Below, one piece after another: positions 3,284 through 28,952 of a stretch of 32,196 bases of DNA. Under the pieces are notes generated by a model. The model had not been told where the DNA came from. It was given only the letters and a program-made list of their open reading frames with translations, and did no database searches. The stretch is from the IMG/VR virus record IMGVR_UViG_3300043392_000003, positions 1 to 32,196 of that record. One strand, 5' to 3'. The position numbers and the translations under genes are program-made. The stretch's first letter is position 1. Each line of letters opens with the position of its first letter. The stretch is from a virus.

Positions 3284-3763
3284 ATGGAAATTTGGAAAGA
3301 AATTAATTGGGTTGATGGGAAATTTGCAATCAGCAATCAAGGTTTAGTTAAAAATTTGATTACTAATAAAATTCATTATGGATCAAATTTAAGAGGCTAT
3401 AAATCAATTAACCTTAAGAATAATGGTAAAATCAAAAACTATTTAATTCATAGAATAGTAGCAAAAGCTTTTATGGATAATTACGACGATAAATTAATGA
3501 TTAACCATATAGATTTTAACAAATCAAATAATAAAATAGATAATTTAGAATTAGTTACTAATAGAGAGAATCAATGCCATTCTATTAAAGCTAAAAATAA
3601 ATTCATAGGAGTTTCTTACCATAAAATTTATAAGGTTTGGACAGCACAAATAATGATAAATGGTAAGCTTAAATATTTAGGAAGATATCAAACTCAAGAA
3701 GATGCTTATAATGCAAGATGTAAATTTGAATTAGATAATGGTATTGTCAATAAATATTTATAA
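3284..3763 (+). CDS. HNH homing endonuclease with AP2 domain
   Basis: 159 aa. Residues 1-45 are a NUMOD4-type DNA-binding segment (MEIWKEINWV...AISNQGLVKN). Residues 55-98 are the HNH nuclease: His56, Asn74-His75 in MINHIDFNK, then NKIDNLELVTNRENQ. Residues 105-150 are an AP2-type DNA-binding domain (GVSYHKIYKVWTAQIMINGK, YLGRYQTQEDAYNAR). The protein is a free-standing selfish nuclease and probably cuts phages lacking the element. It sits between the phosphoesterase gene and the terminator, preceded by a structured leader. It is more AT-rich than the neighbouring structural genes, consistent with mobility. Confidence 0.9.
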   Translation: MEIWKEINWVDGKFAISNQGLVKNLITNKIHYGSNLRGYKSINLKNNGKIKNYLIHRIVAKAFMDNYDDKLMINHIDFNKSNNKIDNLELVTNRENQCHSIKAKNKFIGVSYHKIYKVWTAQIMINGKLKYLGRYQTQEDAYNARCKFELDNGIVNKYL

Positions 3764-6233: not shown

Positions 6234-6767
6234 ATGAAAAATTTAGAATGGTATCCATTTTTTTATAATGGATCTGAAACAAACATTGAAGCTACTAAAT
6301 GTGGTAGATTAAGAAAAGTAGAAAAAGATTGGTACGGAAAAGGTAAAGGTAAAAATCGAGTAGTGTATGGAGAAATAGATTTAATGCAAAAAAAAATATC
6401 TAATTCTGGTTACAAGCAAATTAATGTAAGAGTAAATAATAATTTAAGTAGACCATTTACAGTTCATCAAATTATGGCTGCCATTTTTTTAAATCATAAT
6501 ATAGATGGTCATAAATTTGTAATAGATCATATTGATTCCAATAAATTAAATAATAATATTAAAAATTTACGAATTGTGTCGGCAAGACAAAATTGTTCAA
6601 AAGAGAAAACCTTAGTATCAGGACTTCCAGCTGGTGTTCATTTTCATAAACCATTGCAAAAATATGCTTCAAGAATTCATTATAATGGTAAAAAGCATTT
6701 TTTAGGATATTATAACAATATTGAACAAGCATCACAAGCATATCAAACTGCTTTAAACAATTTATAA
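6234..6767 (+). CDS. HNH homing endonuclease with AP2 domain
   Basis: 177 aa from ATG 6234; an in-frame TTG at 6216 lies within the leader hairpin and is rejected. Residues 55-75 precede the nuclease. HNH core: His78 in VHQIMAAIF, Asp98-His99 in VIDHIDSNK, then NNNIKNLRIVSARQN. Residues 132-172 are an AP2-type domain (GVHFHKPLQKYASRIHYNGK, FLGYYNNIEQASQAY). It is related in architecture to the nuclease at 3284. TATAA occurs at both borders (6118-6122 and 6763-6767), and the element separates two early genes without damaging either. Confidence 0.9.
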   Translation: MKNLEWYPFFYNGSETNIEATKCGRLRKVEKDWYGKGKGKNRVVYGEIDLMQKKISNSGYKQINVRVNNNLSRPFTVHQIMAAIFLNHNIDGHKFVIDHIDSNKLNNNIKNLRIVSARQNCSKEKTLVSGLPAGVHFHKPLQKYASRIHYNGKKHFLGYYNNIEQASQAYQTALNNL

Positions 6768-10218: not shown

Positions 10219-10226
10219 TCGTTTAT
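10219..10226 (+). promoter_or_regulatory. TCGTTTAT octamer upstream of the regulatory block
   Basis: Exact copy of the octamer found 5 nt before the ATG of three late genes (13256, 22367, 25385). Here it is 15 nt before ATG 10242, the first gene of the block holding the sigma-like factor. The AACAAW upstream half is not at the expected distance. It may be an autoregulatory site or a chance match. Confidence 0.35.
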
Positions 10227-10241
10227 ATAAAAAAGAGATAT

Positions 10242-10421
10242 ATGAAACCTGAAGAAAGGGCATCTTTCCTATGCAATCACGCTAATTTCTTTTGTAGAGA
10301 TAGAGCCAATGCCATAGAATTAGCTTTGCTTATATGCGAGCTAATACTTGAGAATCGTTTGAAAGAAGATGATAGAGTATATTGGAAGCTTACTGTTGAA
10401 GAGATATATAAACTACGATGA
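10242..10421 (+). CDS. Small hypothetical protein (59 aa), first gene of the regulatory block
   Basis: MKPEERASFLCNHANFFCRD followed by helical RANAIELALLICELILENR and a C-terminal VEEIYKLR. Two Cys at 11 and 18 and His13 are noticeable. Its TGA overlaps the ATG of the sigma-like gene (ATGA), so the two are probably co-translated. No family recognised; a regulator of the downstream sigma factor is conceivable but not shown. Confidence 0.6.
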   Translation: MKPEERASFLCNHANFFCRDRANAIELALLICELILENRLKEDDRVYWKLTVEEIYKLR

Positions 10422-10867
10422 ATCACATATACTCGAAGCATAAACATTGGATTCGTGTGGTGGAAAAGTTTGGCGAAGTACATTATGCAGAAGATGTAGT
10501 GCAAGAGGCATACATCAAAGTTTTTGAAAAGGACATCAACGAAGCCTACTTTTACTTTACGCTACGATCCCTTACAATGGACTTGCATCGAAAGAAAGTT
10601 GAAAAGGTAGAGATAACAAAAGAGATAGAATACTCGTTAATAGAAGAGAATGATGAGTATATCATTGACCTTGCAAAGCCTTACCAAGATTACATCGAAA
10701 CTTGGGATTGGTATGATAAGAAGCTATTCATGCTTTGGATTGAATCAGGAGTAAGTATGAGAGAAATAGCAAGAAGAACGAATATCGGTTTCATGTCAGT
10801 TTACAATACAATTAAAAATTGCAAAGAAAAGATTAAACAATGGGAAAAAGAAAATCACAAGGCTTAG
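10418..10867 (+). CDS. Phage-encoded ECF-like sigma factor
   Basis: 149 aa, very compact. Residues 22-60 read as sigma region 2 (YAEDVVQEAYIKVFEKD with the conserved D-VQE-F pattern, then FYFTLRSLTMDLHRKK, the region 2.3/2.4-like helix). Residues 108-140 form a region 4 helix-turn-helix (SGVSMREIARRTNIGFMSVY, then NTIKNCKEKIK). This two-domain form is that of ECF sigma factors, so the protein could direct host RNA polymerase to phage promoters. It precedes the packaging genes, the usual place for a late regulator. An alternative is a sigma-like DNA-binding protein without polymerase function. Confidence 0.75.
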   Translation: MNHIYSKHKHWIRVVEKFGEVHYAEDVVQEAYIKVFEKDINEAYFYFTLRSLTMDLHRKKVEKVEITKEIEYSLIEENDEYIIDLAKPYQDYIETWDWYDKKLFMLWIESGVSMREIARRTNIGFMSVYNTIKNCKEKIKQWEKENHKA

Positions 10868-11202
10868 GCGATTCGATAGAAAAGCTTACCGAAGCAACTG
10901 GAATTAAAAAGGCAGTTGAATTATTTAGCGAGATTACTGGTTTAGATTGCGGATGCGATGAAAGAAAGGAGAAACTCAACAAAATCTTTCCTTACAAAAA
11001 GCCTAATTGCTTGAACGAGGAAGATTATAACTACTTAAAAGAGTTCTTTGCAAGCAATCCAAGCCAAATTACTCCAGTAGTTCAAAGGGAATTATCAGCT
11101 ATTTACAAGAATATATTTAATGTGAACTTAGAGTCAACTTCTTGTTCATCTTGTTGGAGAGATTACATCGGGGAAATTAGAAGAATTTATAACGAATATT
11201 AA
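10840..11202 (+). CDS. Conserved Cys-containing phage protein, partner of the sigma-like gene
   Basis: 120 aa. GLGDSIEKLTEATGIKKAVE, then LDCGCDERKEKLNKIFPYKK and a C-terminal TSCSSCWRDYIGEI. Cys37, Cys39, Cys57, Cys102 and Cys105 could make a zinc site. I recognise the family from Bacteroidota phages and prophages near the terminase but know no function. It overlaps the sigma-like gene by 28 nt and ends 1 nt before the TerS ATG, so it is expressed with both. A zinc-binding anti-sigma or transcription co-factor is one possibility, speculative. Confidence 0.7.
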   Translation: MGKRKSQGLGDSIEKLTEATGIKKAVELFSEITGLDCGCDERKEKLNKIFPYKKPNCLNEEDYNYLKEFFASNPSQITPVVQRELSAIYKNIFNVNLESTSCSSCWRDYIGEIRRIYNEY

Positions 11203-11464: not shown

Positions 11465-12023
11465 TAGGGTGTTGCTTTGAAAATCATTTTTAGCTATATT
11501 GCATTATGGAAATATGGAAAAAAATTGATGGCTACCAAGGCTACGAATGTTCTAATTTAGGAAGAATTAAAACATTTAATTGGAAAAATACGGGTAGGGT
11601 TGCAATTATGAAGCCAGCACTTGACAGTTCAGGATATTTGCGAACTGTATTAAAGCGAAATGATGGCAAATTATGTACGATAAAAGTGCATAGAATTATT
11701 TTGCAAACATTTAATCCGAATGACAATAGTAGTATTTTAGAATGTAACCACAAAAACGGGATCAAAAATGACAATAATATTTTGAATCTTGAATGGGTTA
11801 CACGAAAACAAAATTTACAACATTGCAAAGATAACAATTTGCAATATGTTTTAAGAGGAGAAGAGGTAGGCAATTCTGTTCTAACTTCAACAAAAGTACT
11901 TGAGATAAGAAGCAAATTTATTCCAAGAAAATACTCAAGAACAAGATTAGCAAAAGAGTATGGAGTTTCTGAAGCAACAATTAAAGATGTACTTTATAAA
12001 AGAAGTTGGAAACATATATGATA
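11461..12023 (+). mobile_element. HNH homing endonuclease cassette inserted at the TerS-TerL junction
   Basis: ATGATA occurs at 11461-11466 (TerS stop region) and at 12018-12023 (TerL start). Deleting 11461-12017 joins TerS and TerL by an ATGA overlap, the arrangement seen at many other junctions of this genome. The 557-bp unit contains only a short leader and one HNH gene. The direct repeat is short and could be chance, but the restored junction argues for a clean insertion. Confidence 0.5.
11506..12021 (+). CDS. HNH homing endonuclease with C-terminal HTH
   Basis: 171 aa. NUMOD4-like start (MEIWKKIDGYQGYECSNLGR), HNH core with His62 in VHRIILQTF, Asn81-His82 in CNHKNGIKNDN, then NLEWVTRKQN. 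Residues 127-167 contain a helix-turn-helix (TRLAKEYGVSEATIKDVL) instead of the AP2 domain of the two other HNH proteins. Free-standing homing nucleases next to terL are common and usually target terL of competitors. The leader (11465-11505) is short; ATATTGCATT just before the ATG also occurs at 6122-6131. Stop overlaps the TerL ATG. Confidence 0.92.
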   Translation: MEIWKKIDGYQGYECSNLGRIKTFNWKNTGRVAIMKPALDSSGYLRTVLKRNDGKLCTIKVHRIILQTFNPNDNSSILECNHKNGIKNDNNILNLEWVTRKQNLQHCKDNNLQYVLRGEEVGNSVLTSTKVLEIRSKFIPRKYSRTRLAKEYGVSEATIKDVLYKRSWKHI

Positions 12024-13234
12024 ACTATTAACAAAAAATATATCCCCCTGTTTAGCGAAAGTAGTAGATACTTCGTTATAACGGGGGGGCGATAAGTGGG
12101 AGCGGGAAATCGTTTGCACTAAACTCATTTCTTTTGCTTCTAACGTACGAAGTAGGCCATACCATACTATTTACTCGTTACACATTAACATCTGCTCATA
12201 TCTCAATTATTCCCGAATTTGTAGAGAAGATTGAGATGGCTGATTTGCATAACGACTTCAGCATTACCAAAGATGAGATTATAAATCTTCGTACTGGTAG
12301 CAAGATTCTATTCAAAGGAATTAAGACATCTTCAGGAACTCAAACTGCAAACTTGAAATCGTTACAAGGTGTTACGACTTGGATTCTTGATGAGGCAGAA
12401 GAATTAGTTGAGGAGGATATATTTGATAAGATTGACTTATCAGTTCGTAATTCCCAAAAACAAAATAGGGTTATACTTATTTTGAATCCGACTACTAAGG
12501 AACATTTTATCTACAATAGATTCTTTGAGCAAAACGGAGTTGAAGCTGGAGAAACATTAACCAAAGGAGATACGACTTATATCCATACTACTTACCAAGA
12601 TAATATTGAATATCTTTCTGAATCATTTTTAAATCAGATTGAGGCATTAAAGAAAAACAATCCAAAGAAGTTTGAACATACTATTCTTGGTGGGTGGCTT
12701 GACAAAGCAGAGGGAGTTGTATTTACGAATTGGCGATTCGGAGATTTCAATCCTGACAAACTGCAAACATCATTTGGGCAAGACTTTGGATTCTCTATCG
12801 ATCCAACTACATTGGTAGAGGTAGCAATTGACAAGAATAAGCGCAAGATATACGTTAAGGAGCATTTGTATAAGCCTAAGCTAACTACTTCAGAGATTGC
12901 CATAATTAACAAGCAAGTATGCGGAGGCAATTTGATTATTGCGGATAGTGCAGAGCCAAGACTAATTGCTGAATTGCAAAGTCAAAAGTGCAACATTCAG
13001 CCAACTGAAAAAGGAGCTGGAAGTATATCAGCTGGTATTGCTTTGATGCAAGACTACGAAATTATCTTAGAGCCTAACAGCTCAAACATTGCAAAGGAAT
13101 TTAATAACTATATTTATTCGGATAAGAAATCAGGCTTGGTAATTGACAACTTTAATCACGCTATTGATGCTATACGATACAATGTCTTTTATCACTTATC
13201 TAATCCAAGCAAAGGTCAATACTTTGTGTATTAG
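12018..13234 (+). CDS. terL: Terminase large subunit, reading frame broken in the Walker A motif
   Basis: The ATG at 12018 encodes MITINKKYIPLFSESSRYFV-ITGGR and meets TAA at 12093. The -1 frame continues SGSGKSFALNSFLLLL to 13234. A -1 slip on GGGGGGG (12083-12089) gives a 405-aa protein with ITGGAISGSGKS. Removing 5 nt (12091-12095) gives 403 aa with the canonical ITGGRGSGKS. The rest is intact: Walker B WILDEAEE, coupling motif, nuclease Asp residues in QDFGFSIDPT, IIADSAEPR and HAIDAIRY. No ATG or GTG exists upstream of the motif in the second frame. The enzyme pumps DNA into the prohead and is essential, so a rescue mechanism or a sequence error is expected. Confidence 0.85.
12083..12089 (+). 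other. Possible -1 slippery heptamer G GGG GGG in terL
   Basis: In the phase of the 12018 ATG the codons are ACG GGG GGG CGA TAA, so G GGG GGG fits the X XXY YYZ rule exactly and a stop follows one codon later. Slipping by -1 re-reads GCG ATA AGT and enters the rest of terL. A homopolymer of seven is also a place for indel error. Confidence 0.45.
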
Positions 13235-13237: not shown

Positions 13238-13263
13238 AACAAATAAAAACTTAACTCGTTTAT
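13238..13263 (+). promoter_or_regulatory. Bipartite late motif AACAAA-N12-TCGTTTAT before the tail chaperone gene
   Basis: AACAAA (13238-13243) and TCGTTTAT (13256-13263) separated by 12 nt, then AAATT and ATG 13269. The AAC-N16-CGT spacing is like that of ECF sigma promoters (-35 AAC, -10 CGT). If it is a promoter, transcription would start at or next to the ATG. Confidence 0.5.
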
Positions 13264-13268: not shown

Positions 13269-13934
13269 ATGAAAGTAGAAATTACTATTCCTACGGATTT
13301 AAGCGAAGTGCCATTGGCTCGCTATCAAAAGTTTTTAAAGATTGCGGAGAACAACGAAGATTCGGAATTCTTGCATCACAAAATGATTGAGATATTTTGC
13401 GGGATAGATTTAAAGCTTGTTCCTCAAATTAAATACAAGGACATATTGGATATTAATGGCATCCTAACAAATATGTTCAATAAAGACCATAAGCTTGTGA
13501 AAACTTTTAAGCTTGGTGGAGTTGAGTTTGGATTCATTCCAAATATGGAGGACATTACATCAGGGGAATATATGGATTTAGATACATATATTAACGACTG
13601 GAAAGAGTTACATAAGGCAATGGCAGTCTTATATAGACCAATTAAAACGAAGATTGGTAATAAATATACGATTGAGCCTTACTTGGGATCGGATGCTTAC
13701 TCCGATGTAATGAAGAATGCGCCATTAGATGTTGTTTTAGGAGCAAGGGTTTTTTTTTATCATTTAGGGAACGAGTTACTGAAAAGTACGTTGACCTATT
13801 TGGAGGGGAATCAGGAGGCAATGAGTATTCTGAACAAGCACAATTTGGGCAAAGATGGGGATGGTACTCCTCACTCTATGCTCTTGCTCAAGGCGATGTT
13901 AGAAGATTTGATGATATTACCAAGCTTTCTCTAA
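13269..13934 (+). CDS. Tail assembly chaperone, short (0-frame) product
   Basis: 221 aa. MKVEITIPTDLSEVPLARYQ, then YMDLDTYINDWKELHKAMAV, LYRPIKTKIGNKYTIEPYLG and MKNAPLDVVLGARVFFYHLG match the pattern of Bacteroidota phage tail chaperones (lambda gpG analogues), which hold the tape measure during tail tube assembly. The 0-frame ends HSMLLLKAMLEDLMILPSFL. Protein-like sequence continues in the -1 frame to 14014, giving the longer form. It starts 5 nt after the TCGTTTAT motif. Confidence 0.8.
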   Translation: MKVEITIPTDLSEVPLARYQKFLKIAENNEDSEFLHHKMIEIFCGIDLKLVPQIKYKDILDINGILTNMFNKDHKLVKTFKLGGVEFGFIPNMEDITSGEYMDLDTYINDWKELHKAMAVLYRPIKTKIGNKYTIEPYLGSDAYSDVMKNAPLDVVLGARVFFYHLGNELLKSTLTYLEGNQEAMSILNKHNLGKDGDGTPHSMLLLKAMLEDLMILPSFL

Positions 13935-14014
13935 ATCAGTGCCTAACTTGGCTAACATTTGAGAAACAAAAGAATGATTTAGAAGCGAAAATGATTAATA
14001 AGCAATTAAAATGA
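13751..14014 (+). CDS. Tail assembly chaperone -1 frameshift extension (gpGT-like)
   Basis: A run of nine T (13750-13758) in the phase GTT TTT TTT TAT offers a T TTT TTT slippery heptamer at 13751-13757. After a -1 slip the frame reads FRERVTEKYVDLFGGESG, then EYSEQAQFGQRWGWYSSLYA, LAQGDVRRFDDITKL and ends at TGA 14012-14014, making a 248-aa fusion. The WGWYSSLYALAQGD..FD..TKL segment is typical of T-domains of phage tail chaperones. The -1 frame has no start codon context of its own; the ATG of the next gene overlaps its stop (ATGA). The slip site itself is inferred. Confidence 0.75.
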   Translation, partial: FFLSFRERVTEKYVDLFGGESGGNEYSEQAQFGQRWGWYSSLYALAQGDVRRFDDITKLSLNQCLTWLTFEKQKNDLEAKMINKQLK

Positions 14015-14466
14015 ACGGATACTATTACTTAGTCAATAGGCTAAAGACTTACTTAAATGCTACTGGATTTATTAATTCAGTTTCTATTGGGGATATTTAC
14101 GACATTGACTTAAATAAGCAAACGATATTCCCTTTAACTCATATAATTGTTAATAATGCTACTCCTGATGAGCAAACTCTTTCATTCAATTTGTCCATTC
14201 TTTTTATGGATATTGTAGATGAGAGCAAGTCAGAAACAACTTCTTTATTTGAGGGCAATGATAATACTCACGATGTTTTAAATACTCAATTATCAATCGG
14301 GAATAGATTGTATTTGGATTTAATTCGTGGGGAGCTATTTGATGAATTGGTGCAAGTTACTGGCACTCCATCATTCGAGCCATTTGTTGATAGATTCGAA
14401 AATAAGATTGCAGGATGGACATTAACTTTTGATGTAAGCATTCCTCAAGATATGACCATTTGCTAA
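14011..14466 (+). CDS. Tail terminator/completion-like protein
   Basis: 151 aa. YYYLVNRLKTYLNATGFINS, then IFPLTHIIVNNATPDEQTLS, FNLSILFMDIVDESKSETTS and a C-terminal WTLTFDVSIPQDM. An N-terminal helix followed by a beta-sheet with 'hxhxhxhhDxhD' strands is the fold pattern of tail terminator proteins. It overlaps the chaperone extension and the next gene by short ATGA/TAATG junctions. Assigned from pattern and context. Confidence 0.65.
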   Translation: MNGYYYLVNRLKTYLNATGFINSVSIGDIYDIDLNKQTIFPLTHIIVNNATPDEQTLSFNLSILFMDIVDESKSETTSLFEGNDNTHDVLNTQLSIGNRLYLDLIRGELFDELVQVTGTPSFEPFVDRFENKIAGWTLTFDVSIPQDMTIC

Positions 14467-14996
14467 TGGAATTAAAAAATACTTATGCGCTTGTAAAGAA
14501 GTATAGGGATTATGTGGTGCAACAATCCAAGTCAAACTTGACAAGGACAAAGCACAATAATACGAAGTCTTTGTACAACTCAATTAAAGGCGATATTTTA
14601 ATTGAAGATAAGTATGCTGTTGTAGGATTCAGAATGAACGACTACGGGCAATACTTGGATCAAGGTGTTAAAGGAAAGACAAGCGGAAACAAAGCTCCAA
14701 ATTCAGTATTTAAATTTAGCAAAGGTGGAAGCGGAGGATTAACACAAGGAATAAATAAATGGGTTAAGCAAAAAGGCATTCAATTTAGGGATAAAAAAAC
14801 GGGTAAGTTCTTGAGCTACGATTCAACAGCTTTCTTAATTACTCGTAGCATTTGGCATAAAGGATTAGAATCTACTTTGTTTTTTACCAAGCCATTCCAA
14901 GCTGGATATAAAAAGTACATTGAGAACGATATGATTAACTCCTTTGCAGCAGATGTTGATACTTTAGTAGATTATAATTTAACGAATACGAAATGA
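14466..14996 (+). CDS. HK97 gp10-like tail completion protein
   Basis: 176 aa from ATG 14466 (TAATG overlap); a TTG at 14460 is less likely. N-terminal helix, then YAVVGFRMNDYGQYLDQGVK, a Gly-rich part (KGGSGGLTQGINKWVKQKGI), RDKKTGKFLSYDSTAFLITR and FTKPFQAGYKKYIENDMIN. The 'YGxYLDxGVKG' and 'FLITRSIWHKGLESTLFFTKPF' features are typical of gp10-like neck/tail completion proteins in Bacteroidota phages. Ends with an ATGA overlap into the next tail gene. Confidence 0.7.
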   Translation: MELKNTYALVKKYRDYVVQQSKSNLTRTKHNNTKSLYNSIKGDILIEDKYAVVGFRMNDYGQYLDQGVKGKTSGNKAPNSVFKFSKGGSGGLTQGINKWVKQKGIQFRDKKTGKFLSYDSTAFLITRSIWHKGLESTLFFTKPFQAGYKKYIENDMINSFAADVDTLVDYNLTNTK

Positions 14997-16063
14997 TAAT
15001 TAATGCAAGAAGTCCATATTTTATTTTAATAGATGAAAGTGGGCAAGTAGGAAGTAAGATTGAAATATTTCTTTGGAATGCTCCAGCTTCAGTACCAGCT
15101 TCAGCTACTTATACTTTAAGTAAGCGAAATGCTTCAGCTACTCAAACCGAAAATAGCTACAATATATCTTCTTTTATTCGTGAATATATTGACAACATAG
15201 CTCCAACTGAATCGAATAATTCAATGTGGTGCAATGTAAGAGTTAAGAGATACAAGGAAACTACTTATGGATCGTACACATTAGTAGATACTATTGACTA
15301 TGTTGGAGTAAATGGATATACAAAGTATTTAGATGGATATAATTCTACTGATGCTTCAAATGCTTTTGTAGTGCTTGCAGATACAGCAAAGGAAATTCAA
15401 TATACTTTAGGCAACATTCCTTTTGTCAATGTTATAGTTAATACTGCTTTAGGGGATAAGGTAGACATTAGCTATAAAGATTTGAATGGAAGAAATGAGG
15501 CATTAACAATTTTGATTAATACTTCTGATGCTGCTACCAAAAATATGTTATCAATTCCATTTAGCACTTCATCGGTTAAGTATAAAAATGGAAATACATT
15601 AACGATTCGTTATTGGTCAGGTGGAGTTGTAGTTATTACTAAAACATTTAGAGTTACTCCAGTTTGTGAAGTTAAATATACTCCAGTAGTATGTTCATTT
15701 GTAAATCGTTTTGGTGGTTGGCAATTCTTGAGCTTCTTTAAGGCTCAAACTAATTCAATCAGTACGGAATCGACTACTTATAAGATGATGCCTGATGCGA
15801 TTGATTATAATACAAGCAGACCACAAAGCACTTCATTTAATATTAATGGAAGTCAATCAGTAGTATTAAATACTGGATGGGTTAATGAGAATTATTCAGA
15901 TTTAATCCAAGACTTGATTTTAGCTGAAACAATTTTACTTGATGGCAAGCCAGTAGAATGCAAGACAACAAGCACAAGCTTAAAAACTGCATTGATGGAT
16001 CGTAACATCAATTATACAATGGAATTTGAATATGCTTATAGCTTAATTAACAATGTAATTTAA
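14993..16063 (+). CDS. Tail tip/baseplate protein (Bacteroidota phage type)
   Basis: 356 aa, beta-rich. Begins MIINARSPYFILIDESGQVG with SKIEIFLWNAPASVPASATY, then repeated beta-sandwich-like strands and a C-terminal ALMDRNINYTMEFEYAYSLI. The N-terminal 'RSPYFI..DE' opening is recurrent in Bacteroidota siphophage tail modules. Likely a distal tail or tip protein. Overlap TAATG with the next tip gene supports joint assembly. No catalytic motif. Confidence 0.65.
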   Translation: MIINARSPYFILIDESGQVGSKIEIFLWNAPASVPASATYTLSKRNASATQTENSYNISSFIREYIDNIAPTESNNSMWCNVRVKRYKETTYGSYTLVDTIDYVGVNGYTKYLDGYNSTDASNAFVVLADTAKEIQYTLGNIPFVNVIVNTALGDKVDISYKDLNGRNEALTILINTSDAATKNMLSIPFSTSSVKYKNGNTLTIRYWSGGVVVITKTFRVTPVCEVKYTPVVCSFVNRFGGWQFLSFFKAQTNSISTESTTYKMMPDAIDYNTSRPQSTSFNINGSQSVVLNTGWVNENYSDLIQDLILAETILLDGKPVECKTTSTSLKTALMDRNINYTMEFEYAYSLINNVI

Positions 16064-18282
16064 TGGTAATAGTTGGAGTATATATTTATGTTGATGGAGT
16101 TGCTAAAAGACTTGAGCTTTTTAAGGATGAAACAATTAGCATCACAAGCACAATCCAAGATGTAAATGACATTGGTAAAGTCTTTACTGATTTTAGTCAA
16201 TCGTTTACTGTTCCCGCTTCAGATGTCAACAACTCTATCTTTAAGCATTGGTACGAAAATGCTATTGATAATGGATTTGATGCAAGAAAAAGAGTTGATG
16301 GCTATATTGAGCTTGATACTATTCCATTCAGAAAAGGAAAGATTCAAATTGAAAAAGCGCAATACAAGAATGGAGTATTGGACAATTACCAAATTACTTT
16401 TATCGGTAGTTTGATTAGCTTAAAAGATGCTTTTGCTGGCAAGCAATTAAAGGACATTGACTTTAGCTCATATGACTTTGCATATAGTGGAACTGTAGTA
16501 AAAACTCGTGTAACTACTTTAGCAAATCTTGATATTAAATTCCCTTTAATCAGCTCGAAGAATGTTTGGCAATATGGAGGAGGCGGAGCTGCTGTAAGCA
16601 ATTGGGATATATCAAATACTGCAACACCAATTTATACTTCGGATTTATTTCCCGCAATGAAAGTTGCAAGTATATTTGATGCTATTGCTAATGATTTAGG
16701 ATTAACATTTCAAGGGGATTTCTTGACTGATTCAAGATTTACTCGTGCTTTCTTGTGGCTAAAAAATACTGACTTATTCGAGCAGAAGTTTAGAGTTACA
16801 AAAATTAACTTCCAAACAAATACTTCGACTACTGGCACTCAAGGAATGTTCAATGTACTAACTGATACATTAACTTATACAAAGCCTACATCGCCAGCTT
16901 ATTTAAGTCAAAGCCATATTACTTTTACATTTACTTCTTCAGGTACTCCATTTACTTTTTATGTTTATCGTAACGGAATTAAACTAAGCGAGCAGAGCTA
17001 TGTTACACAAACTTCGCCAATGTACTTGGAAGCTCCTCTTGGCGAATCAGGAGCTTACACATTTCATATATCAGCTACTTCTCCAGTAACTTATACTTCG
17101 GTTTATTACTTTGAAACAAAAGTAGGCACTACAGTAACAAGCGATGTAACTGTAACTCAAAGTACAAGCCAAACTACGGATACTATTTTGAATGTTGCTT
17201 CTTATATGCCTGATATGAGCTTGGAAGAATTCTTTATGGGAATTCTAAAGATGTTTAATCTTACTTGCTATTCGGTTGAGGATTCGATATTCAAAATTGA
17301 GCAGATTGAATCTTGGTATAATGCTGGTCAAATTAAAGACATTTCTAAGTATGTTGTAACTGATGAAATTACCATTGCAAGACAAAAGGCTTATAAGCAA
17401 ATAAAATTCAATTACGAGCCAAGTGAAAGCTTCATGAATAAGCAATACTTATCTATTGCTAATCATGAATACGGGAATTTAAATTACGAATTGGATAGCG
17501 ATGGCTATGAGTACAAGATTGAAGTGCCATTTGAAAACTTGTTATTTCAAAAGTTTACTGGTACTGACTTGCAAGTTGGCTATTCTTTAAAAGTAGGATT
17601 TGATAATTACATACCAAAGCCAGTTATTTTGTATGAATATGGATCGTTAACTTCTACTTCGTTTAAAATAAACGATGGCTCTACAACAACGACTGCTTTG
17701 GCTTACAATGTATTCGGGCAAGACACTAATATTTCAAGTGTTAATTGGTCAATAAATTTTGGAGCTGAACAATCAAGCTTTACAAATTTCATTGAAACTA
17801 ATACTTTGTATGCTAATTACTACGATGATTACATTACGAATATCTTTAGTGTAAAGGCTCGAATTGTAAGCATTAAAGCGATTATGCCAATTCCTTTTTT
17901 AACTGCCTTAAACTTAAACGATAGGCTTGTAATAAGGGATAAGCGATACACTATTAACTCATATACTACTGATTTAACTACTGGCGAGGTAAGTCTTGAG
18001 TTAATTAATGATTTTAGAGTTGATACGGAAGCTCCTCCAGTTCCTACAACTGAATGGTACGAGCTTTACAATTGTGAAGATGCTTCAGTTGCTTATTCAG
18101 AGGAATATACAATTGGCGATTTTGTAATTGATGAACGAGTTACAAATGGCGCAGATACTTATACAATTAGTTCGGTATTGACAAGCGAGCCAAGCGGTAC
18201 TTTATTAGCTATTACAACAACTGGCGAATCAGGTTGCCCAACAATTACAAACGAATCAATTACATACTACACTTTATACTAA
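16063..18282 (+). CDS. Large tail tip/hub protein
   Basis: 739 aa. N-terminal part (residues 1-110) reads RLELFKDETISITSTIQDVN, FTDFSQSFTVPASDVN and GYIELDTIPFRKGKIQIEKA, like the inner ring of tail hubs. The middle (about 260-380) is a Thr/Ser-rich beta insertion. Around 400-640 comes a hub-like section (MSLEEFFMGILKMFNLTCYS, ending LNLNDRLVIRDKRYTINSYT). The last 80 residues contain a Cys/Asp-rich small domain (YELYNCEDASVAYSEEY) that may be a receptor-contact or carbohydrate-binding element. Exact role unknown. Confidence 0.65.
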   Translation: MVIVGVYIYVDGVAKRLELFKDETISITSTIQDVNDIGKVFTDFSQSFTVPASDVNNSIFKHWYENAIDNGFDARKRVDGYIELDTIPFRKGKIQIEKAQYKNGVLDNYQITFIGSLISLKDAFAGKQLKDIDFSSYDFAYSGTVVKTRVTTLANLDIKFPLISSKNVWQYGGGGAAVSNWDISNTATPIYTSDLFPAMKVASIFDAIANDLGLTFQGDFLTDSRFTRAFLWLKNTDLFEQKFRVTKINFQTNTSTTGTQGMFNVLTDTLTYTKPTSPAYLSQSHITFTFTSSGTPFTFYVYRNGIKLSEQSYVTQTSPMYLEAPLGESGAYTFHISATSPVTYTSVYYFETKVGTTVTSDVTVTQSTSQTTDTILNVASYMPDMSLEEFFMGILKMFNLTCYSVEDSIFKIEQIESWYNAGQIKDISKYVVTDEITIARQKAYKQIKFNYEPSESFMNKQYLSIANHEYGNLNYELDSDGYEYKIEVPFENLLFQKFTGTDLQVGYSLKVGFDNYIPKPVILYEYGSLTSTSFKINDGSTTTTALAYNVFGQDTNISSVNWSINFGAEQSSFTNFIETNTLYANYYDDYITNIFSVKARIVSIKAIMPIPFLTALNLNDRLVIRDKRYTINSYTTDLTTGEVSLELINDFRVDTEAPPVPTTEWYELYNCEDASVAYSEEYTIGDFVIDERVTNGADTYTISSVLTSEPSGTLLAITTTGESGCPTITNESITYYTLY

Positions 18283-18286
18283 TAAA

Positions 18287-20713
18287 ATGGCATTCACTTC
18301 ACTTTCAGATGCAAGGACAAAATTAACGAATCTTGACCAAGATGTCAATTCTGCTATTTTATATGCAAACAATAGCTTGTTGGATTCAACTACAACATTT
18401 TATACAAACGTAGAAAAAACCAATTTAGCTCCAGCTGGTAACTATGTAATTCCTACTCCACAATTCAAGTCTTACTATGTTACTTTAAATAGTAGTGGCA
18501 AAATTGTAGGAACAGCTCAAGAGCTTCTTGAATCAACTACCGATGTAAGTTGGGTTGATGATTCAATTATTCAATATCCACAAGGCATTCAGGTTTCAAA
18601 TAACTACTTTGGAAACTGGTGGTGGGGAACGGATATGTCGCTTGATTCAAGCAATAGATTAACCGATGCACTTTGGACACAAAAGCCAAATGAATCTGAT
18701 GTTAAAAAATGGCAAGTAGATTACGCTGAATATCGTACTGATGCTTTGACAAATATAGATTTATCAGACATGAAAGGTTACGATTTAAAAATCACGATTG
18801 GTAAATGGGGAACAAATAACTTTGATGGAGATATAATTGCTGGGTTTGAAGTTGATAATTTCACTTTTCCGATTGTACATCTTGCAGCAGATAGAAATCG
18901 TGCAACTACGGTAGGGAGTTTAAAGTATTATTTTAGACCAGATTACTTCTTTCCAAAGGAAGACTTTAAGCATATTAGCTATTTTAGGAGATTCCCAAAT
19001 ACATTGCCTATTTTAGACAAGAATGGCAATCAAAAGGACTTTATATCCGTATTAAATCCTATTCTTGATTGTGTAGTTAAGGATTCAGGTACATTTGGAA
19101 GTACAACAAGACAATGGAGAACATCAACAAGAAATAATAAAGGATATACATATTCTTCAATGTTGTATCTTAAAAATTTCGTTAATGGCACTCCAAGTAA
19201 TTCAGATTACTTTATGCGTAAAGATTTGAATCCAACAAGAGATTCAAATAATATATTGCACTTTGTGCCAATAAATAAACGACACGTTTTTGATGGAGAT
19301 TCTTGGATTAAATCAGCAAGCGGACACGTTAGAGGAATAACTCCTAATTTTAATAATGCTACTGATGTAAGTTATATTTGTGCATTAATTGAATCTTTGG
19401 CAGTATTGCCTGATGATAGAGCAGATTGGCGTTATTCAGTTTATGGAGTAGGTATTAAAACTTATGCAGAAATTAATCCTTATGAATGGACTTTAGTACC
19501 ATATGAAGGAAGTTATAATTATACTGCTCCAGCAACATTGTTTTTAAATTTCTTTAATCCAAATGGTACTGCTGACAATCCAGTTAATGAATCAACTGGA
19601 ATAAACTTACAATTCGATTTTGAATATGTTGCTGGCTTTGGAAGAGATAGCTTTTTAATAGGTTCAATTTATAAGCAAATTTGGGAAAATTGTAAGGCTC
19701 ATTCTATTGCTCAAAATTGGCAAGCAAGCGGAGGAGTTTATCCTCGTTTAAGCAATTATGCGGAAGGATTATATCAAAGAGGTTTTCAAGGTAATAATGG
19801 AAATGGTTTTATTTCAGTAGTTGACCATACAATTAATGAAGTAAAAGCTACTGGCTTATACGATGATTATAAAAATTATTACCTATTAGGCACAAAAAGT
19901 AAATCAGCAGTTTATTACCATCGTTTTTACGAAGGAGCTATTGATGTTTACGATTCTTTTTATGTGGCTAATTATGTCAATATGGGCAGACCAAATTGGT
20001 TACTTTATGCCTTTGTACATAACTACGACATTACTCGTAAATTACTTGTAGATATTTTAGGAGCTGAAGCTGCAAAAACGAAAAAAGTAATGGGATATTT
20101 TTGGGCATTACAAGAGCCTAATAAAGCAGATTTTTACTTTGCTCGTACTGGTGTTCAAAATGGTTCGATGTTAGGATATAGACCAAGCGTAGCTCCATCA
20201 ATGAATCAATCTCTTGCAGTTTGGTCGTTTGCCTATGGTGATGGTCTTTACTTATGGTCACCATCTCCAATGCCTATTGGCGGGGAATATAATCACGATA
20301 GAGTAAACAATGACAATCCGCTAGTTTATTATTGGGGGGATTTAGGTATTGCAGACAATGGATTATATGATTGGTTTCATATCGGATATTGGCAAGTGAT
20401 GCAAAATAGAGATATTGTTGGAGCATCAACAAGCTGGTTAAGACCACAAATTTATTGGAATGGTGCTTGGACTTCTGACACGGATGCAGATAGCTCAAAT
20501 ATTCCAGTTATGCTTTGCCAAGCTAAAGCTCCCATTTCGGCTTATAAAGTTTCAGCAGATGGAAGCGAAGCGTTGCTAATTATTACAAATCCATTTAATA
20601 ATGGTTATACTAAAGCAACACATCAAATAAGATTGCCACATATTTCAGGCACTCCTACTTATAATGTTGATACTTGGGGACAATATACATCAGTAATTAG
20701 AATAACGCTATGA
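18287..20713 (+). CDS. Large tail-module protein of unknown family, possible receptor-binding or glycan-processing protein
   Basis: 808 aa, very rich in Trp, Tyr and Asn, no signal peptide. N-terminus (1-110) looks like an attachment region; residues 120-250 form a beta domain (YDLKITIGKWGTNNFDGDII). The long central part (300-720) includes GDSWIKSASGHVRGITPNF, VAGFGRDSFLIGSIYKQIWE and GYFWALQEPNKADFYF, reminiscent of alpha/beta barrel glycosidases. The C-terminus (SALLIITNPFNN-like beta strands, QIRLPHISGTPTYNVDTWGQ) resembles the beta-sandwich that closes such enzymes. It sits between tip and tape measure genes. No family assigned; enzymatic activity is a hypothesis. Confidence 0.6.
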   Translation: MAFTSLSDARTKLTNLDQDVNSAILYANNSLLDSTTTFYTNVEKTNLAPAGNYVIPTPQFKSYYVTLNSSGKIVGTAQELLESTTDVSWVDDSIIQYPQGIQVSNNYFGNWWWGTDMSLDSSNRLTDALWTQKPNESDVKKWQVDYAEYRTDALTNIDLSDMKGYDLKITIGKWGTNNFDGDIIAGFEVDNFTFPIVHLAADRNRATTVGSLKYYFRPDYFFPKEDFKHISYFRRFPNTLPILDKNGNQKDFISVLNPILDCVVKDSGTFGSTTRQWRTSTRNNKGYTYSSMLYLKNFVNGTPSNSDYFMRKDLNPTRDSNNILHFVPINKRHVFDGDSWIKSASGHVRGITPNFNNATDVSYICALIESLAVLPDDRADWRYSVYGVGIKTYAEINPYEWTLVPYEGSYNYTAPATLFLNFFNPNGTADNPVNESTGINLQFDFEYVAGFGRDSFLIGSIYKQIWENCKAHSIAQNWQASGGVYPRLSNYAEGLYQRGFQGNNGNGFISVVDHTINEVKATGLYDDYKNYYLLGTKSKSAVYYHRFYEGAIDVYDSFYVANYVNMGRPNWLLYAFVHNYDITRKLLVDILGAEAAKTKKVMGYFWALQEPNKADFYFARTGVQNGSMLGYRPSVAPSMNQSLAVWSFAYGDGLYLWSPSPMPIGGEYNHDRVNNDNPLVYYWGDLGIADNGLYDWFHIGYWQVMQNRDIVGASTSWLRPQIYWNGAWTSDTDADSSNIPVMLCQAKAPISAYKVSADGSEALLIITNPFNNGYTKATHQIRLPHISGTPTYNVDTWGQYTSVIRITL

Positions 20714-20862
20714 TAAAAAAGATACTTGATTTACTTATCGCTTTAGACCATTATGGTCAATCGGAAGTAATAGAAATTGCCAAAGGCAAGTATGAATTGC
20801 CTAACACATTTAAAAAAGGATACAAGCAAATTAAAAGACAAATAAAATGGCAAAAACAGTAG
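20710..20862 (+). CDS. Small basic hypothetical protein (50 aa)
   Basis: MIKKILDLLIALDHYGQSEV, then IEIAKGKYELPNTFKKGYKQ and a basic end. ATG overlaps the stop of the 808-aa gene (ATGA) and the 3' end overlaps the tape measure start by 16 nt, so it is probably translated in the late operon. Helical; no known family. Confidence 0.6.
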   Translation: MIKKILDLLIALDHYGQSEVIEIAKGKYELPNTFKKGYKQIKRQIKWQKQ

Positions 20863-22340
20863 AGGTAGACTTACAGATTAATAGCAATTTAGAGGGCTCT
20901 ATTGCGCAATTAAAAGCATTAAAGAAGCAATTAAAAGATACTGCTGCTGGATCGGAAGAATTTAAGCAGATATATAACCAAATTGATGACTTAGAGGACA
21001 AGATTAAATCTTCAAGAGCAGCTTCTTCTGATTGGATTGACACATTAGAAAATGCGGGCGGACCTTTAGGTATGCTTGGAGGAGCTATCAATAAAGCTAA
21101 GGTAGCAACTCAATCATTTAGTGGAGCATTAAAGGCTTCTGGAATTGGTTTACTTGTATCATTAGTAGGTGGATTAGTAGCTGCATTTAATAATTCATCG
21201 GAAGCAACTAAAAAGCTTCAGCCATTGCTTATTGGAATGGAGAGAATATTCAATGGTATTTATGCTATCGTTGAGCCTTTGTTTAATTTAATGGTTGACT
21301 TGGCATTAAAAGCATTGCCAATGGTAAGTCAAGCTTTTGCAGTAGTTTACTCTTCCGTTTCAGCTGTTGTTCAATCATTAGGTAGTTTAGGTCAATCAGT
21401 TTACAAATTTGTTACTGGAGATTTTTCGGGTGCTTGGGAATCAGCTAAATCAAGCGTTACCGATTTTAGCAAGAATTATAACGAATCAATTACAAGATTT
21501 GAAGAGGGAACAAAAAGACTTACTAAAACTGAAAAGGAAAATGCAGATAAGCGAGTTGCTATTAAGAAAGATGAGATTAAGCAACAAGAAGATTTAAATG
21601 CTAAGCAATATCGTGATGCACAAGAACAGTATGAAAATTACCTAAAAGGTATTGCAGATTTGGAGCAACGTTATAATGACGAAATCCAAGATATGAAAGC
21701 CAACAATGACCAAAAGGCTTTGAACTTATGGTATGAAAGAAGAGCAAAAGAAATAGAAGCAATAACTAAAGATGAGGGGGAAAAGAATAATTTATATGCT
21801 TTGCTTGCCCAAGAAAGAGCATTAAAGCAAGCAGAAATTGACCAAAAAGCATTTGAAACTCGTAAAGATTTACAATTAAAGTATGCTGATGTTGTTATGT
21901 CTGCTGGTAGATTATTACAACAAGCTGCGGGAGATAATAAAGATTTAGCTATTGCGGGTATCATATTAGACCAAGCTTCGGCTGTTGCTTCAATTGCAAT
22001 TAATACTCAAAAGAATGCAGCAAAAGCGGGTTACTTTTCTCCAACTGGTATTGCTGAATTAGCAGCTGGAGCAGTAGGTATAGCTTCCGCAATTATGTCA
22101 GCAAAGCAAGGTATTGATGCAATTAACTCTTCAGGCATTCAAGGCGGAAGTGGATCGGGAGCAACAATGGTAGCTCCTCCAGCTCCTAAATTTAATGTAG
22201 TTGGTGCAAGTGGAATTAATCAAGTAGCACAATCAATAGGCAATCAATCTAATCAGCCTATAAAAGCTTATGTAGTTTCTAAGGATGTAACAACTGCGCA
22301 AAGCCTTGATAGAAATATCATTAGCTCTGCATCTATGTAG
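20847..22340 (+). CDS. Tape measure protein
   Basis: 497 aa. N-terminal coiled coil (NLEGSIAQLKALKKQLKDTA), a Gly/Ala-rich hydrophobic stretch at about 70-180 (LKASGIGLLVSLVGGLVAAF, VDLALKALPMVSQAF), a long charged coiled coil at 220-350, a second hydrophobic region (AIAGIILDQASAVASIAINT) and a C-terminal KAYVVSKDVTTAQSLDRNI typical of Bacteroidota phage tape measures. It sets tail length and is delivered into the envelope at infection. At 497 aa it is short, implying a short siphovirus tail. It lies upstream of the head genes, an unusual order. Confidence 0.85.
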   Translation: MAKTVEVDLQINSNLEGSIAQLKALKKQLKDTAAGSEEFKQIYNQIDDLEDKIKSSRAASSDWIDTLENAGGPLGMLGGAINKAKVATQSFSGALKASGIGLLVSLVGGLVAAFNNSSEATKKLQPLLIGMERIFNGIYAIVEPLFNLMVDLALKALPMVSQAFAVVYSSVSAVVQSLGSLGQSVYKFVTGDFSGAWESAKSSVTDFSKNYNESITRFEEGTKRLTKTEKENADKRVAIKKDEIKQQEDLNAKQYRDAQEQYENYLKGIADLEQRYNDEIQDMKANNDQKALNLWYERRAKEIEAITKDEGEKNNLYALLAQERALKQAEIDQKAFETRKDLQLKYADVVMSAGRLLQQAAGDNKDLAIAGIILDQASAVASIAINTQKNAAKAGYFSPTGIAELAAGAVGIASAIMSAKQGIDAINSSGIQGGSGSGATMVAPPAPKFNVVGASGINQVAQSIGNQSNQPIKAYVVSKDVTTAQSLDRNIISSASM

Positions 22341-22349: not shown

Positions 22350-22374
22350 AACAATCAAATTTTAAATCGTTTAT
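22350..22374 (+). promoter_or_regulatory. Bipartite late motif AACAAT-N11-TCGTTTAT before the protease gene
   Basis: AACAAT (22350-22355) and TCGTTTAT (22367-22374), then AGGTT and ATG 22380. Same layout as at 13238 and 25367 with one nucleotide less in the spacer. It opens the head gene block. Confidence 0.5.
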
Positions 22375-22379: not shown

Positions 22380-22949
22380 ATGAGAATCGTGGAATTAATT
22401 ATTGATAAAGATACTGATGGCATTGATGCCGTTTCCCTTGTCGACTTTCCCGCAATAGAGAGCAACTTTGTCGCTTTAAATAAAGAATACGAAGTTAAGC
22501 TTGCCGAAGTAGATGCGGAGAAACGGATATTGATGGGGGCGGCATTAATACCAAATAAGCAGATTTATCGTAAGTATGGAAAGGATGAGTTTTATGTATT
22601 CTTCTCAAAGGAAACAGTAAAGCAAGCATCTGAATTATTCCTAAAAAATGGCAATCAGTCAAATGCTACTTTGCAACATAATAGCAAGATTGATGGAATG
22701 ACTGTTGTAGAATCTTGGATTATTGATGATACTGAAAATGATAAATCTAATGCTTATGGCTTTTCATTGCCACAAGGTACTTGGATGATTTCAATGAAAG
22801 CAGACAATGACAAGGTTTGGCAAGATGTTAAAGATGGAAAAGTTAAAGGCTTTTCTATTGAGGGATATTTTGCGGATAAATTAGAAATGGCTAAAGAAGA
22901 AGAAATTGTTAAACAAATTATTGACATACTTAAAGATGGCGAAGAATAA
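22380..22949 (+). CDS. XkdF-like prohead protease
   Basis: 189 aa. Opens with ELIIDKDTDGIDAVSLVDFP (the family's self-cleaved N-terminal region), followed by RILMGAALIPNKQIYRKYGK, DEFYVFFSKETVKQASELFL, NGNQSNATLQHNSKIDGMTV, VESWIIDDTENDKSNAYGFS, and WQDVKDGKVKGFSIEGYF. These segments define the XkdF-type putative serine protease family (PF14550), equivalent to prohead maturation proteases. His in LQHN and Ser in FSIEG are the likely catalytic residues. It precedes the scaffold and major capsid protein, as expected. Starts 5 nt after TCGTTTAT. Confidence 0.9.
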   Translation: MRIVELIIDKDTDGIDAVSLVDFPAIESNFVALNKEYEVKLAEVDAEKRILMGAALIPNKQIYRKYGKDEFYVFFSKETVKQASELFLKNGNQSNATLQHNSKIDGMTVVESWIIDDTENDKSNAYGFSLPQGTWMISMKADNDKVWQDVKDGKVKGFSIEGYFADKLEMAKEEEIVKQIIDILKDGEE

Positions 22950-23124
22950 AACTTCATCTCCACAAGGAGGGAATCGTGCTTGCTTATGCGAGGATGGAAC
23001 ATATTCAAAAGATTGTTGTAAAGGAGAGATTATTAATCAAGGAATTGGATCGTTAGTTGAGCAAGTGGCTCCATCTAATGTTGTTAATACAAATTCTCCA
23101 AGAACTATTGTAAGTGTAAATTAA
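22936..23124 (+). CDS. Small Cys-rich conserved phage protein
   Basis: 62 aa from ATG 22936; a TTG at 22906 lies inside the protease gene and is rejected. NRACLCEDGTYSKDCCKGEI with CLC and CC motifs is a small conserved block that I recognise from Bacteroidota phage head modules, followed by NQGIGSLVEQ and a Ser/Asn-rich tail. The four Cys may form a metal site or disulfides. It overlaps the protease gene by 14 nt. Function unknown. Confidence 0.7.
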   Translation: MAKNKTSSPQGGNRACLCEDGTYSKDCCKGEIINQGIGSLVEQVAPSNVVNTNSPRTIVSVN

Positions 23125-23142
23125 TCAATTAAATAAATAAGT

Positions 23143-23751
23143 ATGAACTACAAAAACAAGTTAAACCAAATCAAAGCGTTACTTGCTTTAGAGGTTAAGC
23201 TTGCTCAAATGAAGCTTGAAGATGGTATTACCATTGTAGAAGCTGAAGCATTCGAGCCTGACTACTCTATTGGAATCGTAACTGCTGATGGGATTGTACC
23301 AATGCCAGTAGGCGAGTACAAATTGGAAGATGGAAGCATATTAGTTGTTGCGGTTGAGGGCATTATTGCTGAAATCAAACAAGAAGAAGCTGAAGCGGAA
23401 GTTGAAGTTGAAGTTGAGGCTGCTCCTGAAGAGGTTGTTGAGCCTATGATGGAAGCAGAAACACCAGCTCCAACTCCTAAGCGTATCGTTGAATCAGTTT
23501 CAAAAGAAACATTCTTCGAAGCACAAATTGAAGCATTGCGCAATGAATTAGAAGAAATCAAAGCAGAGAATGAGGCTTTGAAATTGTCTAAGCAATCTTT
23601 AGAAATTGAATTGTCAAATGTAGAGGAGGGAGCAGAAGCAATTGTTCCTAATCCTGAAGCAGAAAGCAAGGTATCTTCATTTAAATTAGCAAAGAATCGT
23701 ACTCGTTCAATCGAAGATTCAGTTTACTCAAAAATTTTTAACAAACAATAA
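23143..23751 (+). CDS. Scaffolding protein
   Basis: 202 aa, strongly acidic. A small N-terminal domain (residues 1-75, YSIGIVTADGIVPMPVGEYK) is followed by a low-complexity Glu/Val/Ala linker (EAEAEVEVEVEAAPEEVVEP), a coiled coil at about 125-160 (IEALRNELEEIKAENEALKL) and a basic C-terminus (FKLAKNRTRSIEDSVYSKIF). Acidic coiled coil plus a basic end between protease and major capsid genes is typical of phage scaffolds. The linker is encoded by GAAGTT-type tandem hexamers near 23395-23420, a place where length could vary. Confidence 0.85.
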   Translation: MNYKNKLNQIKALLALEVKLAQMKLEDGITIVEAEAFEPDYSIGIVTADGIVPMPVGEYKLEDGSILVVAVEGIIAEIKQEEAEAEVEVEVEAAPEEVVEPMMEAETPAPTPKRIVESVSKETFFEAQIEALRNELEEIKAENEALKLSKQSLEIELSNVEEGAEAIVPNPEAESKVSSFKLAKNRTRSIEDSVYSKIFNKQ

Positions 23752-23758
23752 ATAAATA

Positions 23759-24712: not shown

Positions 24713-24725
24713 TTAGCATCTTAAT

Positions 24726-24755
24726 AGCTCCTCGTTAATTCGGGGAGCTTATTTT
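24726..24755 (+). terminator. Probable intrinsic terminator after the capsid gene
   Basis: AGCTCCTCG (24726-24734) pairs with CGGGGAGCT (24741-24749), one U:G wobble, loop TTAATT, followed by TATTTT. It would limit read-through after the highly expressed capsid gene, reducing tail tube and portal levels. Confidence 0.65.
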
Positions 24756-24777
24756 CAATCATTTAATTTATTTTAAT

Positions 24778-25305
24778 ATGGCTTGTGATATTTCACTTGG
24801 TAGATTAGAGCCTTGCAAAACAAGTAACGGAGGATTGAAAGCCGTTTACTTTGTTAACGAGGGCGATGCTACTGGAGTAACATACGATGTTACGGATACG
24901 GATGCCATTTCTGCGGTAGCTGGTACACCAACAGCTTACAAATATGATTTGAAAGGAAACTCTTCATTTGAGCAAACTATCACTTCATCTCGTGAAAATG
25001 GTACTACTTTCTTCGAGCAAACGCTTAACTTGACTTTGAAGAAGTTAACAATTAAAGACCATAAGCAAATCAAATTGCTTTCTTATGGCAGACCACAAGT
25101 AATTGTTGAAGATAACAACGGAAACTTGTTCTATTGCGGTTTAGCTCATGGAATGGAAGTAAGCGGTGGTACAATCGTTACGGGTGCTGCAATGGGAGAT
25201 TTGTCAGGATATACTTTAGTATTATCAGGACAAGAGCCAGTTCCAGCAAACTTCTTAACTACAACTTTAACATCTGCTGGATTTACAGTAGTAGCTGGAG
25301 TTTAG
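24778..25305 (+). CDS. Major tail (tube) protein
   Basis: 175 aa. MACDISLGRLEPCKTSNGGL, AVYFVNEGDATGVTYDV, YKYDLKGNSSFEQTITSSRE, NGTTFFEQTLNLTLKKLTIK, VIVEDNNGNLFYCGLAHGME and TIVTGAAMGDLSGYTLVLSG form a pattern I know from Bacteroidota phages as the tail tube protein. Beta-rich throughout. Lies directly after the capsid gene and is bounded by terminator-like hairpins on both sides, suggesting strong separate expression. Confidence 0.8.
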   Translation: MACDISLGRLEPCKTSNGGLKAVYFVNEGDATGVTYDVTDTDAISAVAGTPTAYKYDLKGNSSFEQTITSSRENGTTFFEQTLNLTLKKLTIKDHKQIKLLSYGRPQVIVEDNNGNLFYCGLAHGMEVSGGTIVTGAAMGDLSGYTLVLSGQEPVPANFLTTTLTSAGFTVVAGV

Positions 25306-27450: not shown

Positions 27451-27455
27451 TAAGC

Positions 27456-28546: not shown

Positions 28547-28611
28547 AGGTAAATACAAGCCCAAAGAAAAGAACGTAAAAAAGTTAGAAATATTTTTAAA
28601 AAAGATAAGCA

Positions 28612-28950: not shown

Positions 28951-28952
28951 TT

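Follow-up and report, generated by a model that had tools for sequence, protein, structure and literature searches.

The sigma-factor gene and its surroundings

The window analysed here, 32,196 bases long, is an entire virus record, and as its final 57 bases match positions of about 71-127 the genome is probably terminally redundant or circular. Its main features are collected in Table 1. As described in the first-pass annotation, a 149-aa ORF starts in an ATGA overlap, here with a 59-aa ORF, and the leader of this block carries the octamer TCGTTTAT. The 3' end of the 149-aa ORF is overlapped by a 120-aa ORF (10840-11202), which weakly matches PHROG 32048 (function not assigned) and possibly encodes a sigma partner or an anti-sigma. 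No anti-sigma gene was identified, the adjacent 59-aa and 120-aa ORFs having no match to a named family in Pfam or PHROGs. Adjacent anti-sigma genes are common, not universal, for ECF sigmas. A search of the window against Rfam gave no match at gathering thresholds.

Table 1. Positions of the genes and signals in the 32,196-base window
Feature	Position	Strand	Description
Candidate weak self-promoter TCGTTTAT	10219-10226	+	23 bases before ATG; PWM 15.4, fifth in window
59-aa ORF	10242-10421	+	No family match in Pfam or PHROGs; ATGA overlap with sigma start
Most likely ECF-type sigma factor, 149 aa	10418-10867	+	Profiles, predicted model, fold matches
Large terminase (terL)	12018-13234	+	Downstream of sigma, in two frames
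Predicted late promoter 1	13239-13263	+	ACAA, N14, CGTTTAT, AAATT, ATG at 13269; PWM 22.0, rank 1
Late block 1	13269-22340	+	Gene after terL (PHROG 32199, function not assigned), then long genes with unassigned PHROGs or none
Predicted late promoter 2	22351-22374	+	ACAA, N13, CGTTTAT, AGGTT, ATG at 22380; PWM 17.7, rank 2
Late block 2	22380-25305	+	Head-maturation-protease-like gene (PHROG 24921, 3017), then PHROG 11320 and 19091 genes
Terminator-like hairpin	25334-25352	+	Adjoins predicted late promoter 3 upstream; weak alone
Predicted late promoter 3	25368-25392	+	ACAA, N14, CGTTTAT, TAATT, ATG at 25398; PWM 17.5, rank 3
Late block 3	25398-32000	+	108-aa ORF, portal, homing endonuclease-like, further ORFs, tail fibre
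Portal	25717-27450	+	In late block 3
Homing endonuclease-like ORF	27456-28046	+	Matches homing endonuclease PHROG
Tail fibre	28953-32000	+	End of late block 3

To judge from its position and gene size, late block 1 is probably the tail module; PHROG 11320 and 19091, represented in late block 2, have no assigned function. In terL, the change of frame falls within the Walker A region (12018-12135), at a run of seven Gs with a stop two codons later. The seven-G stretch is shared with five contigs (L004, L008, L009, L010 and L012) whose terL bodies are 78-88% identical to that of the window, and an uninterrupted TGGRGSGKS is present in the terL of L002, L003, L006, L007, L011 and L054. A possible hairpin (z -1.74) lies downstream of the frame change. 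The frame change may not be an error but a site at which recoding is conserved, and the 5' segment of terL looks to have been exchanged as a cassette. A NUMOD4/HNH homing endonuclease ORF (11506-12021) is located between a terS-like ORF and terL. Judged by the sigma-to-terL spacing, an insert of similar size is present in L012 and not in L004, L008, L009 or L010, and these four share the terL frame change without it. The ORFs 3284-3763 and 6234-6767 resemble HNH endonucleases by eye only.

In the 149-aa protein, region 2 spans approximately residues 1-61 and region 4 approximately residues 84-147, with a low-confidence linker (62-75) between them. The NCBIfam sigma70-ECF profile TIGR02937 matched with E 2e-7 and 30.8 bits, below its cut-off of 42.9 bits. 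One of the four family members scanned passed this cut-off (L116, 44.4 bits, from a distant sigma clade of ~42% identity); the cultured phage P12024L (29.4 bits) and L128 (27.1 bits) fell below it with the window. The best Pfam match was UPF0122 (E 9.7e-6, residues 101-145). Pfam Sigma70_r2 matched at E 0.0096, scoring 16.1 against a cut-off of 24, and of 30 relatives 26 also matched it with E no higher than 0.1 (best E 0.0034), while the sigma factor PHROG 1740 matched at E 3e-4. A profile of 30 family members found SigW (5wuq) in the PDB at E 0.006, the alignment covering residues 12-61. In IMG/VR, the family comprised 49 relatives in a first scan and at least 562 with a profile.

The AlphaFold2 model of the protein (pLDDT 75.5, falling below 50 at residues 62-75; pTM 0.42) shows two helical domains. 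When it was searched with Foldseek, rank 1 was one chain from a transcription initiation complex and ranks 2-7 were ECF sigmas (SigL, AlgU, SigH and sigmaE), with a best E of 0.0044 and no match below 0.001. The first-pass annotation had proposed comparing a predicted structure with ECF sigma folds, and a sigma region 2 fold was found: VIA-align placed residues 1-65 on 4lup, a complex of sigmaE region 2 with the -10 element (Z 7.7, rmsd 2.1, 65 aligned), and residues 85-148 on 2h27, a complex of E. coli sigmaE region 4 with the -35 element (Z 8.4, rmsd 2.2, 64 aligned). A further region 2 match was 5uxx; absences from the Foldseek and VIA-align results were not counted as evidence. Because Z-scores of 7-9 are middling for small helical domains, identification as a sigma factor draws on sequence and fold jointly. 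Profiles and model matched two domains only and gave no sign of region 1 (1.1, 1.2) or region 3, in agreement with the earlier description of region 2-like and region 4-like helices without the other two. The ECF-like identity first proposed is also supported by profiles, fold and relatives, and an ECF-type sigma factor confined to regions 2 and 4 is the most likely identity of the protein.

A two-part motif before the gene blocks

The octamer TCGTTTAT occurs eight times in the window against 1.66 expected, and none of 100 shuffles reached eight (largest, six). Only four of the copies (10219, 13256, 22367 and 25385) are intergenic on the plus strand. Those at 3160 (+), 17668 (-), 19275 (-) and 30741 (-) lie inside ORFs and were treated as chance. 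The octamer forms the -10 half of a two-part motif, ACAA-N13/14-CGTTTAT, with five bases between its end and ATG. The octamer understates the real signal, since the full motif at this distance is present at three of the four intergenic copies. These best copies fall outside 10219-10867, the interval to which the first-pass annotation was attached.

The motif emerged from a positional 7-mer scan, with no preset motif, of 578 deduplicated upstream regions from 116 sequences, in which CGTTTAT at -12 from ATG ranked top (43 occurrences against 1.1 expected). Aligning the sites revealed the second half, giving ACAA, 13-14 bases, CGTTTAT, about five bases and ATG; a collection of 138 sites includes duplicate contigs, so that its sites are not independent. 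A PWM was trained on 38 sites, none of them from the window or its closest loci. Its top five matches in the window were 13257 (22.0), 22368 (17.7), 25386 (17.5), 10635 (15.6) and 10220 (15.4), of which 10635 lies inside the sigma ORF and was treated as chance. On 200 random sequences the mean maximum was 13.2 and the highest 19.2; by score alone only 13257 beats all of these maxima, 22368 and 25386 falling below the highest. A search with the plain pattern and no ATG condition found three sites in the window against 0.047 expected (maximum in 300 random sequences, two). With the window and six further loci searched for their own -10 versions, all 20 sites had an ATG within nine bases, L094 contributing a single site that is weak alone. 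Scans of the window for sigma70-type promoters and terminators gave nothing above chance, terminator-like sites numbering seven against 8.2 expected in shuffles.

For comparisons among the relatives, the window (L001) was excluded, and upstream regions and sigma rows identical across the compared stretch were merged. Across the gene starts of sigma-bearing loci, a looser form of the motif was found at 80 of 798 starts lying 25 or more bases beyond the previous gene, at four of 87 lying 15-24 bases beyond it, at four of 318 lying 0-14 bases beyond it and at one of 1,081 overlapping starts. As the motif is found at starts after a gap and hardly at overlapping ones, it is read here as a late operon promoter and not as a translation signal. 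When the starts lying 15 or more bases beyond the previous gene are divided by their place relative to sigma, the motif is present at 78 of 422 on its downstream side and at six of 463 upstream. Of these six, three belong to P12024L genes located where its linear record begins; the other three are found in the CGTTATAT clade, in front of a 97-aa gene that lies immediately upstream of sigma.

For the gene following terL, the strict motif was found in 45 of 66 deduplicated cases with sigma in the same DNA (51 of 109 counting all). Among the 21 misses, eight have a near variant (L038, L057, L079, L110, L109, L047, L106 and L181); in the other 13 the motif is absent, misplaced or in another arrangement. 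In a clade with asparagine at sigma residue 58 (L137, L142, L156 and kin), the sigma gene lies ~9-10 kb upstream of the post-terL gene. Leaders of this clade carry TAATACAA or ATACAA followed, at a greater distance from ATG, by a TTATTA-type sequence that may mark a shifted kind of promoter. L192 and L202, also N58, have a TTGTA-type sequence that does not fit the strict motif. A sigma-free relative that could serve as a negative control was not found among 20 chosen post-terL records. Sigma was present in five of them: the four records that reach or exceed 29.8 kb, and a single one of 23.8 kb. The 15 records without sigma are shorter (6.4-23.8 kb), so none of them is shown to be a true sigma-free relative.

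The octamer in the sigma leader has an imperfect -35 half, ATAA for ACAA, one base off. Its PWM score (15.4) alone proves nothing, because the chance match at 10635 scores 15.6. In nine of ten distinct close contigs, each with at least 243 bases of upstream sequence, CGTTTATA is found 197-225 bases before sigma, and in seven of these nine its surroundings are of three unlike contexts. The -35 half is not recognisable in the L002-type context, and most of the more distant loci listed lack the leader site. In L118, L119, L121, L122 and L126, the 97-aa gene upstream of sigma has a full late-type promoter in front of it, suggesting self-activation in that clade. The proposal that the sigma factor may autoregulate is thus suggestive only: the retained CGTTTATA speaks for weak self-activation in the close contigs, and the imperfect -35 half and the absence from most distant loci speak against it.

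Residue 58 and the -10 element among relatives

Five versions of the -10 element were distinguished. Most loci with a site have CGTTTATA; the L118-L126 clade has CGTTATAT, L069, L074, L093, L094 and L099 have TGTTTATA, L151 and L158 have TGTTATTA, and P12024L has CGTTAATA. The sigma tree was built without region 2.4 from 87 rows, in which loci lacking a -10 class are represented only by a chosen set; rows with more than 45 gap columns were excluded. On this tree, which has long branches, the five classes need four changes, the minimum.

Residue 58 of the sigma protein sits in MDLHRKK. Arginine, serine or histidine at this position occurs with C as the first -10 base (53 distinct region-2 sequences, 91 loci), and asparagine with T (six distinct sequences, ten loci). 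In three further sequences, lysine is paired with G or A (one sequence each) and threonine with G (one). The locus counts include duplicate contigs and are therefore not independent. As an exception, L173 (N58) also has a G-type site. The leaders of L137, L142 and L156 do not fit the residue-base rule, and these loci were excluded from the residue-58 table together with L192 and L202. First base and residue-58 class each change four times on the tree. On the best tree they agree in four independent pairs, a number that drops to two when only well-supported branches are counted (sign test p 0.5). The sigma protein and its promoter signals seem, from their sequences, to change together across the related phages. 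With four changes, two of them on well-supported branches, the covariation is a pattern to test and not a statistic.

The cultured relative is the Nonlabens (Persicivirga) phage P12024L, whose gp35, shortly before the terminase, is annotated as a hypothetical protein containing Sigma-70 region 2 and no more. The equivalent gene of P12024S, gp33, has the same place before terL. A tblastn search of 50,697 phage records with the window sigma gave one match (E 0.3) and missed P12024L, which was reached through window genes 13269 and 23759. Both phages have relatives of these two genes and a sigma gene before terL, as in the window; they are far diverged from it, and the P12024L record (NC_018272) carries no promoter annotation. 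Like the window, P12024L has its version of the motif, ACAA-N14/15-CGTTAATA, before gene starts: the starts at 179, 3031, 5412, 24771, 26011 and 27612 are preceded by ACAA-type-N14/15-CGTTA(A/T)TA before ATG. A strict search for CGTTAATA in P12024L found five sites against 0.027 expected. A Bacteroidota host is proposed for the window phage from its P12024L kin only, because one scan of genome contigs gave just four distant loci, on a Bacteroidetes MAG contig (32%), a contig of a Colwellia MAG and two contigs of Flavobacteriales MAGs.

Proposed late transcription and its alternatives

The first-pass annotation had a phage sigma serving the late genes, and this is supported in silico by promoter placement, by specificity for operon starts and by the sigma/promoter covariation. 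On the evidence of sequence and model, we consider it highly probable that a late ECF sigma acts at ACAA-N13/14-CGTTTAT promoters that lie so near ATG that the late mRNAs are nearly leaderless. The sigma factor would be made from the block just before the terminase, bind host RNA polymerase and direct it to the motif. This would open three late blocks, covering the probable tail module, the head protease with head-module genes, and the genes from portal to tail fibre. Region 4 is predicted to recognise the -35 element, ACAA, and region 2.4, residue 58 in particular, to recognise the base with which the -10 element begins. Transcription would start at or within about two bases of ATG and, because the motif ends five bases before ATG, we infer leaderless or nearly leaderless late mRNAs. 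In F. johnsoniae, transcripts with a probable promoter are described as mostly leadered, 87% of them over 10 bases, in the relevant passages of PMC6847099.

For the early genes, host-type TAnnTTTG promoters had been proposed, and the host element given for F. johnsoniae in the same passages is TAHHTTTG (PMC6847099). This element is not clearly enriched in the window (43 copies against 35 expected; seven of 100 shuffles as high). Six plus-strand copies lie outside simple gene calls, all of them outside 10205-31999, and some of the six fall in short ORFs that these calls missed. Support for the proposed early promoters is weak.

Alternatively, the gene could encode a late activator of helix-turn-helix type (RinA, ArpU or YlxM-like) that aids host sigma-RNA polymerase, the motif being its binding site. 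The best Pfam match, UPF0122/YlxM at residues 101-145, points in this direction, as does the place of the gene directly before the terminase, where the late activators of some other phages also sit. Nevertheless, the N-terminal half matches Sigma70_r2 in most relatives (26 of 30, E up to 0.1) and aligns with sigma region 2. The two motif halves, with their near-fixed spacing and fixed distance to ATG, resemble an RNA polymerase promoter, and the TAHHTTTG element is absent from all three late leaders. An activator is therefore unlikely.

The constant distance to ATG would also suit a reading of CGTTTAT as a translation-start signal and not a promoter, the more so as Bacteroidota mRNAs are described in passages of PMC6847099 as having no Shine-Dalgarno sequence and initiation tuned by nearby bases. 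A signal of this kind is at odds with the distribution over 80 of 798 starts after a gap versus one of 1,081 overlapping starts, with the distant ACAA half and with the variation of the motif by sigma clade, and we regard it as very improbable. Least credible of all is a sigma factor that chiefly reprogrammes host genes, late phage promoters being secondary. Against such a role, the motif precedes the phage's own structural genes in many relatives. The late sigma factor acting at its own promoters is thus the preferred reading.

Bacterial ECF sigmas are cellular regulators, usually with an anti-sigma. Those such as B. subtilis SigW and E. coli sigmaE resemble the window protein in having regions 2 and 4 only, but sequence similarity to it is weak. 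SigW promoters combine an AAC-type -35 with a CGT-type -10, as in the window motif. In a note to the phage 7-11 record, phiEco32 gp36 is termed an ECF sigma, a label that we assume for the sigmas of both phages. As with sigmas of the 7-11 and phiEco32 kind, the window phage has its own promoter motif before late genes.

Phage-encoded late-gene sigmas are established in phiEco32 and 7-11, according to passages of PMC4331800 and PMC8948821. The sections of PMC8948821 on Salmonella phage 7-11 describe SaPh711_gp47, a 185-aa late sigma with the promoter GTAAtg-16-aCTA and a transcription start 6-9 bp from the promoter element. Like the window protein, it is small and opens late genes via a two-part promoter (PMC8948821); the promoter itself is different, and 7-11 is a 90-kb Salmonella phage. 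The two proteins can hardly be aligned: BLASTP gave E 0.009 across 16 region 2 residues, and hhalign a probability of 6% with E 0.006 across region 4. For phiEco32 gp36, the same source gives in its relevant part a single-element promoter, tAATGTAtA, and reports region 4 homology as absent (PMC8948821). The likeness of gp36 to the window protein, as a phage sigma for middle and late genes, is one of description. A search of the open-access literature, which is not a full check, returned no account of the lineage, promoter, covariation or late control in P12024-type phages, and word searches of PMC4615864 and PMC8776804 found neither promoter nor late control of these phages.

Extended to a whole lineage, the proposal is tentative, its chances falling just short of even: small Bacteroidota phages would carry an ECF sigma whose -10 element is built onto the start codon, with leaderless late mRNAs in mostly leadered hosts, and residue 58 would set the first -10 base (R/S/H to C, N to T, K/T to G or A). 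If true, the results provide a predicted late promoter for a large environmental phage group, with the cultured P12024L and P12024S as test phages. The natural series of sigmas and promoters, which apparently changed together, could be of use in studying how ECF region 2.4 reads DNA. The leaderless messages, if they are so, would offer a clean case of initiation by Bacteroidota ribosomes on such mRNAs.
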